Positions 10,301-13,122 of a stretch of DNA of 64,000 bases are shown piece after piece. Position 1 is the stretch's first letter. Every line of letters begins with the position of its first letter. The stretch spans positions 1 through 64,000 of the forward strand of contig NZ_SLXD01000002.1 of the NCBI RefSeq assembly GCF_004340905.1, given 5' to 3'. The notes below the pieces were generated by a model that saw only the letters and a list, made by a program, of their open reading frames with translations, searched no databases and had not been told where the DNA came from. The position numbers and the translations under genes are program-made. The DNA is from Rubrivivax gelatinosus (GTDB lineage: Bacteria; Pseudomonadota; Gammaproteobacteria; Burkholderiales; Burkholderiaceae_C).

Positions 10301-11302
10301 ACCAACGAGCGCGGCGCGGTCGAGGTCTGGCGCGACACCCAGCTGCAGTTCGGCGCCCCGCTGGCGGACCTGCTGAAGCAGTGGGACGAGGTCAGCTGGC
10401 GCATCGCGCGCGAGCGCGACAACCCGGAGAGCGCCGACAGCGAACACGCCAGCGTCGCCGCGGCCGACGATCCGGGCCTGCATGTGCACCTGACGTTCGA
10501 CCCGGCCGAAGACGTCGCCGCACCCTTCGTCAACGTCGCGCGGCCGAAGATCGCGATCCTGCGCGAGCAGGGCGTCAACTCGCACGTCGAGATGAGCTAC
10601 GCGATGCACCAGGCGGGCTTCGACACCTACGACGTGCACATGAGCGACCTGCAGGCTGGGCGCGCGCGCCTCGACGGCTTCCAGGCCTTCGTCGCCTGCG
10701 GCGGCTTCAGCTACGGCGACACGCTGGGCGCCGGCGAAGGCTGGGCGCGCTCGATCCTGTTCAACCCGGTGCTGGAAGCGCAGTTCGCGGCCTTCTTCGC
10801 GCGGCCGGACACGATCGCGCTGGGCGTGTGCAACGGCTGCCAGATGCTGGCCGCGCTGTCGCCGATGATCCCGGGCGCCGAGCACTGGCCCAAGTTCACG
10901 CGCAACAAGAGCGAGCAGTTCGAGGCCCGGCTGTCGCTCGTCGAGGTGCTGGCGAGCCCCAGCGTCTTCTTCGAAGGCATGGCCGGCAGCCGCATTCCGA
11001 TCGCCGTCGCGCACGGTGAAGGTTTCGCCGACTTCTCGCAGCGCGGTGACGCCGCCAAGGTGCTGCGTGCGATGCGTTTCGTCGACCACCGCGGCCGGCC
11101 GACCGAGGCCTATCCGGCCAACCCGAACGGCAGCCCCGACGGCCTGACCTCGGTGACCACCGCCGACGGCCGCTTCACCGCGCTGATGCCGCACCCGGAG
11201 CGTGTCTTCCGCAACGTCCAGATGAGCTGGACCTCGGGTGACAAGAGCGTGTTCAGCCCGTGGATGCGCATGTTCCGCAACGCGCGTCGTTCGCTGGGCT
11301 GA
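7322..11302 (+). CDS. purL: phosphoribosylformylglycinamidine synthase (large single-chain type)
   Basis: PurL converts formylglycinamide ribonucleotide, ATP and glutamine to formylglycinamidine ribonucleotide, step four of purine synthesis. The 1326-residue protein is the single-chain form: N-terminal PurS-like part, tandem ATP-binding AIRS-type domains, and a C-terminal class I glutamine amidotransferase with catalytic Cys1170 in GVCNGCQM and a late MPHPERVF for the His/Glu pair. The length is close to the E. coli enzyme (1295). The start follows from the N-terminus [14 protein letters not shown]; there is no upstream ribosome binding site, consistent with a leaderless message. Confidence 0.97.
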
Positions 11303-11308
11303 AGTCAT

Positions 11309-11342
11309 GCGGGAGACTCGGCCGCCGTGCCGGTTCTCCCGC
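11309..11342 (+). terminator. candidate purL terminator hairpin
   Basis: GCGGGAGA (11309-11316) pairs perfectly with TCTCCCGC (11335-11342), enclosing an 18-nt GC-rich loop, 6 nt after the purL stop. No T-run follows, so termination strength is uncertain. Confidence 0.4.
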
Positions 11343-11392
11343 GCAGAATGCGTGCCGCCGGCTTGGCCGGCCTGAACCAGGAGTCCGCACCC

Positions 11393-11404
11393 ATGCGCCA
11401 TTGA
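11393..11404 (+). CDS. putative leader peptide, Met-Arg-His
   Basis: ATG-CGC-CAT-TGA, 9 nt after a good AGGAG ribosome binding site, in the leader of the ABC-F ATPase gene. Its stop shares the A of TGATG with the next tiny ORF. A three-codon ORF can arise by chance; what supports it is the well-spaced ribosome binding site and the attenuator-like structure downstream. Confidence 0.4.
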   Translation: MRH

Positions 11405-11421
11405 TGCCGCCGTCTGCATGA
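11404..11421 (+). CDS. putative leader peptide, Met-Pro-Pro-Ser-Ala
   Basis: A five-codon ORF coupled by TGATG to the tripeptide ORF before it. It encodes two consecutive prolines, a known slow-translation motif, and it overlaps the first leader hairpin, so a ribosome held here would melt that hairpin and come close to the left arm of the hairpin that buries the downstream ribosome binding site. Existence as a translated peptide is inferred. Confidence 0.3.
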   Translation: MPPSA

Positions 11422-11455
11422 CGGCTTTCGCCCCTCCGGATCACCGGAGGACCGA

Positions 11456-13084
11456 ATGCATCGATCGGAGCCTGGAATGACGGATCCTCTGCTGGCGCTG
11501 GACGGCGTCGGTTTTCTGCTCGCCGACGGCCGGCCGCTGTTTGCCGACCTCCACGAAACCTTCGACCGCCGCCGCACCGGCCTCGTCGGCCGCAACGGCA
11601 TCGGCAAGAGCGTGCTGGGCCGCTTGCTGGCCGGCGAACTCGTGCCGTCCAGCGGCCGGGTGCGCCGCCAGGGGCGGGTTTTCCGCCTCGCGCAGCAGCT
11701 CGCGCCGGCGCCCGGTGCGACGCTGGCGCAGCTTGCCGGCGTGCACGAGGCGCTGGCGGCGCTGCAGCGGCTCGAAGCCGGCGAGGGCGACGAACACGAC
11801 CTGGCCCGACTCGCCGACCGCTGGGACCTGCGCCAGCGCCTGCAGGCCGAACTCGCATACGCCGGCCTGCCGGCCTTGCCGCCCGAGACGCCGGCGGCCA
11901 CGCTCAGCGGCGGCCAGGCGATGCGTGCCGCGCTGGCCGGCGCCTGGCTCGCCGACGCCGACTTCCTGATCTTCGACGAGCCCAGCAACCACCTCGACCG
12001 CGAAGGTCGCCGGGCCTTGCTCGCGCAGTTGCTGCGCTGGCGCGGCGGCCTGCTCGTCATCAGCCACGACCGCGAGCTGCTGGAGACGATGGAGAGCCTC
12101 GTCGAGCTGTCGCCGCTGGGCCTGCAGCGCCACGGCGGCGGCTGGAGCTTCTACGTCGAACGCCGCGACGCGCAGCGAGCCCAGGCCGAAGCGGAGCTGG
12201 AGCGCCGCAAGCTCGAACGTCGCCAGACCGCCGCGCGGCTGCAGCGGGAAGCCGAGCGCCAGCAGCGCCGGCAGTCGCAGGCGCGCCAGGAGCGCGCCGA
12301 CGGCAGCCAGCCCAGGTGCGTGCTCGACTTCCGCCAGGAGCGCAGCGAAGACAGCGCCGGCCGCATGCGCCAGCGCCACGAGGCGGTGCGCGCCGAGCTG
12401 GCCGGAGCGGTGCGGGTGGCTGCGAGCCGTGTCGCGGCCGACGTGGCCATCGTCGTGCCGCCGTTGCCGCCGGCGGTGCTGCCGCACGAGGTGCTGGCGT
12501 TCGACGGCGAGCTGCCGTTCGTCGCTGCGCCGCTGGCCCGGCTGCAGCTCAGGCTGCACGGCGTCGCCCGGCTGGCGGTCTGCGGTCCCAACGGCTGCGG
12601 CAAGTCGACGCTGCTGCAGGTGCTGGCCGGGCGTCTCGCGCCGCGGGCCGGGCGGGTGGAGCGCCCTGTCGTTCAGGCCTGGCTGGACCAGCGCCTGGCC
12701 GGCTTCGACGGCCCGGGCAGCGCGCTCGAACGCATTCAGGACGCCTGCCGGCAGAGGCCCGAGGCGGAGCTGCGCACCCGGCTGGCACAACTCGGCCTGG
12801 GCACGGCGACGCTGGCGACACCCTGCGACGCGCTGAGCGGCGGCGAACGCCTGAAGCTCGCGCTGGCCCGGGCGCTGCTGGCCGACGAGCCGGCGCGCCT
12901 GCTGCTGCTCGACGAACCCGGCAACCACCTGGACGTCGCCGCGCTCGAAGCGCTGGAAGCCATGCTGCGCAGCTGGCGCGGCGCGCTCGTCGTCGTCTCG
13001 CACGACGAGGCTTTCCTCGCGGCGCTGGCGCTCGACGAACGCCTGCAAGCCACGCCCGAGGGCTGGCAGCGGCGCCCGTTCTGA
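11456..13084 (+). CDS. ABC-F family ATPase, non-EttA/Uup/YheS type
   Basis: A soluble protein of 542 residues with two ATP-binding cassettes and no membrane segment: Walker A GRNGIGKS (45-52) and GPNGCGKS (about 377-384), signatures LSGGQ and LSGGE, Walker B with DEPSNHLD and DEPGNHLD where most ABC-F proteins have DEPTNHLD. A charged, helical linker rich in Arg, Glu and Gln (about residues 235-315) corresponds to the P-site tRNA interaction motif. ABC-F proteins act on the ribosome, in antibiotic protection or relief of stalling; which applies here is unknown. The start at 11456 has GGAGG 5 nt upstream inside a hairpin; 11477 (MTDPLL, own GGAG) is equally possible and matches typical N-termini. 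Confidence 0.85.
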   Translation: MHRSEPGMTDPLLALDGVGFLLADGRPLFADLHETFDRRRTGLVGRNGIGKSVLGRLLAGELVPSSGRVRRQGRVFRLAQQLAPAPGATLAQLAGVHEALAALQRLEAGEGDEHDLARLADRWDLRQRLQAELAYAGLPALPPETPAATLSGGQAMRAALAGAWLADADFLIFDEPSNHLDREGRRALLAQLLRWRGGLLVISHDRELLETMESLVELSPLGLQRHGGGWSFYVERRDAQRAQAEAELERRKLERRQTAARLQREAERQQRRQSQARQERADGSQPRCVLDFRQERSEDSAGRMRQRHEAVRAELAGAVRVAASRVAADVAIVVPPLPPAVLPHEVLAFDGELPFVAAPLARLQLRLHGVARLAVCGPNGCGKSTLLQVLAGRLAPRAGRVERPVVQAWLDQRLAGFDGPGSALERIQDACRQRPEAELRTRLAQLGLGTATLATPCDALSGGERLKLALARALLADEPARLLLLDEPGNHLDVAALEALEAMLRSWRGALVVVSHDEAFLAALALDERLQATPEGWQRRPF

Positions 13085-13100: not shown

Positions 13101-13122
13101 AACCGGCCCCGCGGGGCCGGTT
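13101..13122 (-). terminator. bidirectional intrinsic terminator
   Basis: A perfect 22-bp palindrome (AACCGGCCCCG and its complement) lies between the converging ABC-F and Tim44-like genes. Read on the minus strand it is followed by TTTTCTTTTG, a good T-rich tail for the Tim44-like transcript; on the plus strand TTCATTG follows, a weaker tail. Confidence 0.8.

Follow-up and report, generated by a model that had tools for sequence, protein, structure and literature searches.

The first 64,000 nucleotides (nt) of contig NZ_SLXD01000002.1 of Rubrivivax gelatinosus, hereafter the window, contain an ABC-F ATPase gene preceded by a leader with an upstream open reading frame (uORF) of only three codons, Met-Arg-His (MRH). 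We consider it likely that this leader is a ribosome-operated switch, in which a ribosome held on the uORF uncovers the translation start of the ABC-F gene. Comparison of related sequences indicates that the uORF is conserved, that in most loci its end pairs and covaries with the Shine-Dalgarno region of the ABC-F gene in a stem called P1, and that both features are linked to one ABC-F family. Control of the window gene is probably exerted at translation. An initial annotation had proposed an attenuator-like leader with a tiny reading frame and a buried ribosome binding site before this gene; in that general form the proposal is borne out by conservation and compensatory changes. It had also named loss of the small frame or the stem among relatives as contrary evidence, and both MRH and P1 proved to be conserved.

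Related loci were collected by protein searches of overlapping samples of 81 genomes from the genus, 299 from the family, 399 from the order and 274 from the class, which gave 43 loci. We read 42 of these, leaving out of all counts one locus (L041) in which the ABC-F match begins at residue 135. A later search of 279 genomes from the phylum, 38 of them with a match, added 33 new loci. Class-level counts refer to the GTDB class of the window organism, which unites the beta- and gamma-proteobacteria. L041 and a further homologue, L103, look broken, each with one in-frame TGA.

A three-codon uORF was present in 56 of 57 class-level loci (40 genera), with arginine at codon 2 in 46 of the 57. It stood at the expected position in 41 of the 42 first-set loci, where the peptides were MRH (24 loci), MRL (6), MRR, MRM, MRN and VNN (2 each), and VRN, MSL and MIL (1 each). 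All 11 later class-level loci carried one (MRN 3; MRH, MRY and MRQ 2 each; MNH; VNN), as did four further class-level loci from a single genus, L108-L111 (MNN, MNH, MKY, MKY). Frames of the form M/V-R-x-stop lay within 200 nt upstream of the gene in 37 of 42 loci, whereas 200 dinucleotide shuffles gave 0.76 loci on average and never more than 3 of 42. One of five Shine-Dalgarno-like 4-mers preceded the uORF in 42 of 53 loci, and the GGAGT of the uORF Shine-Dalgarno was retained in all four Rubrivivax loci. Synonymous codons were exchanged at histidine (CAT/CAC), leucine (CTC/CTG/CTT) and arginine (CGC/CGT/CGG), as were the stops TGA and TAA, and the length of three codons was kept even where the peptide was VNN, MIL, MSL, MNN or MKY.

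The uORF also appears to be specific to this gene. A 20-base pattern of the uORF and the bases after it matched 8 of the 399 order genomes, the window's included, in every case in front of this ABC-F gene; a reversed-pattern control matched none. Two ABC-F paralogues in the same genome lacked a three-codon uORF in the 200 nt upstream, and the start of a third paralogue was unreadable. In a tree of the 42 ABC-F proteins, with 12 of its 39 inner branches open, the types of uORF mostly coincided with clades. MRN, VRN and VNN formed one deep clade of four and MRL, MRR, MRM, MSL, MIL and VNN one clade of 12; one MRL locus (L040) stood apart, and the remaining proteins had MRH or belonged to L032, described below.

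The leader (11379-11476) folds more stably than expected from its composition (z = -3.7; none of 200 shuffles was equally stable). In the stable fold a three-way junction is closed by P1, a stem that covers the Shine-Dalgarno of ATG 11477, and the hairpins P2 and P3 are predicted to be enclosed within the closed stem. We took 11477 as the ABC-F start because it is retained in all four congeners (MTDPLL, MTQTLL), whereas an alternative ATG at 11456 is ACG in congener L023 and absent from congener L025. The relevant Shine-Dalgarno is therefore the GGAG before 11477 and not the GGAGG at 11446-11450, which lies within the right arm of P3, 5 nt before 11456. RNAalifold recovered P1, P2 and a short P3 unaided from an alignment (A2) of 20 of the 24 MRH leaders, four (L027, L028, L031 and L061) being omitted for length or shape. 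Paired cells in P1 and P2 amounted to 88%, compared with 83.9 when shuffled, and 11 cells were altered on both sides, compared with 2.9; in neither case were any of 500 shuffles as high. These counts include L064 and L067, which are misaligned at the 3' arm and so count against the structure. Shifting the partner by one to three columns reduced pairing to 20-47%.

Outside the MRH clade the RNA differs, yet most loci keep the same pairing rule: a segment that begins at codon 2 and extends 12 nt beyond the uORF stop is paired with the last 24 nt upstream of the ABC-F start. Across 33 genera, the summed pairing energy of each arm with its own Shine-Dalgarno region was -433.7, compared with a permuted mean of -301.6 and a minimum of -363.2, and none of 20000 permutations matched it; in the 11 later loci 1 of 20000 did. 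Related sequences are not independent, so neither the permutation results nor the pair counts are to be read as probabilities. Compensatory pairs in P1 include GATGC/GCATC replaced by AATGC/GCATT, where the stop becomes TAA, and GATGCC/GGCATC replaced by GATACC/GGTATC; further examples of the pairing are TAAAGCTTT/GAGAGCTTTA and TTAATTTCTTTTC/GAAAAGAGATTAA.

An RNA model trained on MRH leaders gave matches in 6 of 200 family genomes; each of the six fell on an ABC-F leader already known and was itself a training sequence, and the model's next best place in the window's own genome had E = 4.9. Since it was trained on MRH leaders, and missed the MRL-type locus of genome G083, it tests the MRH type only. 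A known Rfam family at the leader was rejected, as none reached threshold: in the window (10900-11700) Rfam 15 gave no match at gathering score, and the only one up to E 5 was to a microRNA model (E 1.2) and lay outside the leader; at 12 loci no family fell on the leader. The only element found at those loci was an ALIL pseudoknot about 1.3 kb upstream of the leader of L034 (L034:14-130). ALIL pseudoknots are known from IS3-family elements.

We modelled the cost of opening the ABC-F ribosome binding site using one locus per genus. Over 33 genera it was 7.1 kcal/mol in the free leader and 6.1 with control footprints; a ribosome placed on the uORF start brought it down to 3.3, and one holding codon 3 in its P site to 3.1. 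The modelled relief exceeded 2 kcal/mol in 27 of 33 genera, compared with 3 of 30 with control footprints, and the opening-cost figures for the 11 later loci were 7.2, 4.1 and 6.1. In the window itself the site cost 9.7 kcal/mol to open when free and 6.8 on average with control footprints; the cost fell to 4.8 when the ribosome stood at the start codon and to 3.9 when codon 3 occupied its P site. P3 remained folded at both modelled ribosome positions.

The mechanism suggested by these comparisons would run as follows. A ribosome would translate the uORF, M-R-H in the window. In the absence of a ribosome, the end of the uORF, its stop and the next bases are predicted to pair with the bases entering the ABC-F Shine-Dalgarno and so close the site. 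A ribosome held at the start or stop of the uORF would cover the 5' arm of P1 with its footprint and block P1, upon which the Shine-Dalgarno of 11477 would open and the ABC-F factor be made. By analogy with VmlR, CplR and toiL, the likeliest signal would be a drug or another stress under which ribosomes become trapped at the first codons; the induced factor may then protect or rescue ribosomes, completing the loop. Loss of the untranslated transcript, as in toiL-topAI, would perhaps be additional to translational control, and some members of the family may also use an intrinsic terminator, as L034 suggests. The elements are listed in the table.

Features of the ABC-F leader in the window (positions in nt from its first base)
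Feature	Position	Strand	Basis
uORF Shine-Dalgarno, AGGAG	11379..11383	+	sequence; relatives
uORF, three codons, Met-Arg-His-stop (ATG CGC CAT TGA)	11393..11404	+	conservation across class-level loci
P1 5' arm (anti-Shine-Dalgarno side), CCATTGATGC: third base of codon 2, all of codon 3, the stop and the next three bases	11398..11407	+	fold, pair counts, permutation
MPPSA reading frame (ATG CCG CCG TCT GCA TGA), judged not functional	11404..11421	+	not conserved
P2 hairpin, GCCGTC-TGCAT-GACGGC	11409..11425	+	RNAalifold, pair counts with changes on both sides
P3 hairpin, CCTCCGG-ATCA-CCGGAGG, perfect 7 bp	11433..11450	+	sequence, fold
P1 3' arm, GCATCGAT then GG, entering the ABC-F Shine-Dalgarno	11458..11468	+	fold, pair counts
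ABC-F Shine-Dalgarno, GGAG	11467..11470	+	opening-cost model
ABC-F ATPase, 535 aa, start ATG 11477	11477..13084	+	start conservation, NCBIfam match, fold

Several observations weigh against this account. None of the five Shine-Dalgarno-like 4-mers preceded the uORF in 11 of 53 loci, and in L032 the uORF was reduced to ATG-TGA. Because the bases of the uORF double as bases of P1, pairing accounts for part of its conservation. In the arm-shuffle test only 18 of 33 genera had z below -1.64, and the local duplex of the window was weak (own rank 13 of 33, z -0.29), its full fold and opening cost being strong. Modelled relief did not exceed 2 kcal/mol in 6 of 33 genera (L030, L031, L038, L040, L048 and L058) or in 2 of the 11 later loci (L088 and L091), and in L040 and L048 the modelled ribosome made the site harder to open. 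The uORFs of L108-L111 sit 198-315 nt upstream of the ABC-F match, which means that the P1 arrangement as such does not apply to them, and the 18 ABC-F homologues read outside the class (L094-L107 and L112-L115) had no conserved three-codon uORF. A terminator-like consensus match lies just inside the window's ABC-F gene (11490-11512). Finally, 19 of 42 loci, compared with 4.8 expected, had a -10-like hexamer (at least 5 of 6 positions) at a distance of 34-51 nt upstream of the uORF, whereas in Rubrivivax the best hexamer matched 4 of 6 and no promoter-like scan match preceded the leader. Read-through from purL, the gene on its 5' side, is therefore likely in Rubrivivax, and the leader there may depend on it.

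Some of these outlying loci have features of their own. In L032 (genome G375) the ABC-F site is still modelled as closed, at 10.2 kcal/mol falling to 3.3 with a ribosome, and this locus is a natural test of the need for codons 2 and 3. L108-L111, with a TAA or TAG stop, share a conserved GGGTTAGTrGGCGT about 30-60 nt past the uORF that looks able to pair back with the uORF, a different leader plan. Among the homologues outside the class, start-stop codons occur near a Shine-Dalgarno-like stretch in L096 (ATGTAA) and L102 (ATGTGA), and longer possible leader frames that enter the gene are common to L098/L099, L100/L106/L115, L101/L105 and L107/L114. Two cases look like chance, an M-R-D in L100 that starts with TTG and an M-R-I in L114 that has no Shine-Dalgarno; L107, a relative of L114, has ATC in place of the ATG of M-R-I.

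It is possible, though doubtful, that the device senses termination, with slow termination or inhibition of a release factor holding the ribosome at the stop in place of a drug acting in early elongation. The MsrDL leader is reported to hold ribosomes at its stop codon (PMC10314930). In keeping with such a sensor, the stop codon falls within the pairing arm in both the 33-genus and the 11-locus sets, L032 keeps only a start and a stop, as do two loci of another class (ATG-TAA and ATG-TGA), and relief in the window was slightly greater with codon 3 in the P site than with the start codon there. Across genera, however, the two ribosome positions relieved the site about equally, and the use of UGA, UAA and, in one locus, UAG argues against sensing of one release factor.

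Two other explanations are improbable. Under the first, the leader is only a structured RNA, a three-way junction serving as a riboswitch, protein site or thermometer, and the tiny reading frame is incidental. P1, P2 and P3 are indeed strongly structured, uORF bases are also P1 bases, and among the leaders searched no Rfam family reached threshold. An incidental frame does not fit the persistence of a start codon and exactly three codons where the downstream RNA is unrelated (MRL, MRR, MRM, VNN, MIL, MRN and MKY), nor the synonymous third-position changes and the exchange of stop codons. Under the second explanation, about as unlikely, control acts mainly on transcription, by attenuation that sets a terminator against an antiterminator or involves Rho, like the majority of Gram-positive examples. 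In the leader of L034 the scan reports a terminator-like hairpin and T run where P3 would be, the leaders of L033, L035, L036 and L049 resemble it by eye, and terminator-like sites were more frequent in the window region (3) than in shuffles (0.4), one of them being the match inside the start of the ABC-F gene. Against attenuation, the scan found no terminator-like site within the leader of the window or in L036, and the covariation involves the Shine-Dalgarno region.

The version put forward in the initial annotation, in which proline-proline stalling on a second, coupled frame encoding MPPSA frees GGAGG at 11446 for a start at 11456, is hardly credible. The elements that it listed are all present, namely the AGGAG, the three-codon frame, the TGATG overlap, the 7-bp hairpin, and a second GGAG before ATG 11477, 21 nt after 11456, that can pair with CTCCG of the left arm of P3; MPP is also common in the second frame. 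The overlapping ATG occurs in 23 of 24 MRH loci, but the five-residue frame in only 8, with lengths from 4 to 231 codons and no conservation of its codons, and we rejected it as a functional element. The MRL-type leaders that were read lack the TGATG overlap. L068 has lost the overlapping ATG (ATA) and keeps P1 through a change on the other arm; together with the varying length of the frame, this leaves proline-pair stalling unsupported. The start at 11456 was rejected because congeners do not conserve it, and the CCTCCGG hairpin was rejected as the switch because it stays shut in the modelled induced state, at both ribosome positions.

The proposed switch, worked by a ribosome on the uORF, has close counterparts in known systems. 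The VmlR leader of Bacillus subtilis is described (PMC9226507) as placing a three-codon uORF, uORF(MIN), equipped with its own Shine-Dalgarno, in front of an ABC-F gene, the uORF lying in a stem and a ribosome on it remodelling the leader; the Shine-Dalgarno is also sequestered there, in read-through transcripts. According to the same report an anti-antiterminator, an intrinsic terminator and NusG pausing are central to VmlR, whereas in the window the end of the uORF and its stop pair with the Shine-Dalgarno region itself. The Clostridioides CplR leader (uORF MR[I/M]) shares three codons, arginine at codon 2, an ABC-F target and an anti-Shine-Dalgarno, and stalling by drugs that act just after initiation was proposed for it (PMC10201436). 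As described there, CplR differs in being Gram-positive, in that the terminator hairpin itself holds the Shine-Dalgarno, and in codon 3, which is isoleucine or methionine in CplR and mostly histidine, leucine, asparagine, tyrosine, glutamine, arginine or methionine here. VmlR uORF(MIN), CplR uORF MR[I/M] and the window leader appear to be the same kind of device. Because the scan found no terminator-like site in the window leader, we describe it as working like VmlR and CplR and do not file it as a member of the terminator type.

The same wiring is reported for toiL-topAI of Escherichia coli, also Gram-negative, where bases of the uORF pair with the downstream Shine-Dalgarno and a uORF ribosome stalled by any of several antibiotics frees it, giving translational control (PMC12121999). 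The pairing of uORF bases with the next gene's Shine-Dalgarno was likewise found here. In that account, the toiL uORF is longer, the target is a toxin-antitoxin operon and Rho-dependent termination follows; since target and uORF differ, we do not claim membership. MsrDL-msrD is described as having a six-residue leader (MYLIFM) that is macrolide-specific and attenuates through an intrinsic terminator (PMC10314930). The are5sc/tiaA leaders of Streptomyces coelicolor likewise place short uORFs (MLV, MRS) before ABC-F genes, with drug stalling of the translated uORFs shown by toeprinting; as reported, they differ in being actinobacterial and of the terminator/antiterminator kind, and only MLV and the tiaA uORF are translated (PMC12421871). 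Macrolides are reported to stall short MRLR peptides (PMC8298421), which is a lead for an inducer and not evidence of one. Comparable control of ABC-F genes is known mainly from Gram-positive bacteria, and we found no such leader before an ABC-F gene of Pseudomonadota in the open-access literature, subscription papers being outside the search. What is new is the combination of a three-codon uORF and a stop inside a Shine-Dalgarno stem before a Gram-negative ABC-F family.

On balance we favour a broader view, with some reserve: that in the class uniting the beta- and gamma-proteobacteria a family of ABC-F ribosome-protection factors, chromosomal and patchy in its distribution, is under a common three-codon sensor, whose stop in most lineages lies in an anti-Shine-Dalgarno stem, and is induced by any agent trapping ribosomes on the first codons; this would be a Gram-negative counterpart of VmlR and CplR with toiL-like wiring, kept or spread with the gene in at least 40 genera. 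It predicts inducible intrinsic ribosome protection across many Gram-negative genera and supplies a sequence signature with which such genes can be found cheaply. It also makes it possible to test cleanly whether position alone, or the context of the peptide, lets a three-codon uORF with arginine at codon 2, a feature shared with clostridial CplR, sense drugs.

The best NCBIfam family of the ABC-F protein was NF000355 (ribosomal protection-like ABC-F) at 293.6 bits, below the curated cut-off of 380 and above the scores for Msr (201) and EttA (162). All 37 proteins scanned, those of alignment A3 (37 of the 42), matched NF000355 and other ABC-F models at E ≤ 0.001; the other 36 were 29-94% identical to the window's. 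The nearest solved sequence was 5zlu, deposited as a macrolide efflux protein, which we take to be MsrE. The structure model (predicted local distance difference test score, 87.5) contains a pair of linker helices, 52 and 40 residues long, and was closest to VgaL (Z 38.7), VmlR2 (Z 38.0) and VgaA-LC, with EttA and YbiT near; this ranking separates resistance ABC-Fs poorly from EttA and YbiT (Z 38.7 to 35.0). Patchy presence within a genus has been used as a hint of an antibiotic-resistance (ARE) ABC-F (PMC6723617), and here the gene occurred in 4 of 81 Rubrivivax-genus genomes, the window's included (protein search, E ≤ 1e-80).

In the window the gene order is purL, leader, ABC-F gene. The purL gene (NF003672, 2008 bits against a cut-off of 783) ends at 11302, and the same purL end precedes the ABC-F gene in all four Rubrivivax carriers. 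A protein-based search for related loci returned one close orthologue, in R. benzoatilyticus, and nine weak partial relatives. No plasmid-borne copies were found by tblastn at E ≤ 1e-60, a search that may omit records near the window's genome. Two GC-rich hairpins (11309-11342 and 11357-11371) lie in the gap between purL and the leader; in congener L023 this gap is only about 32 nt and lacks both. At 13101-13122, beyond the ABC-F stop, lies a strong GC hairpin, AACCGGCCCCGCGGGGCCGGTT, that may be the terminator of the gene.

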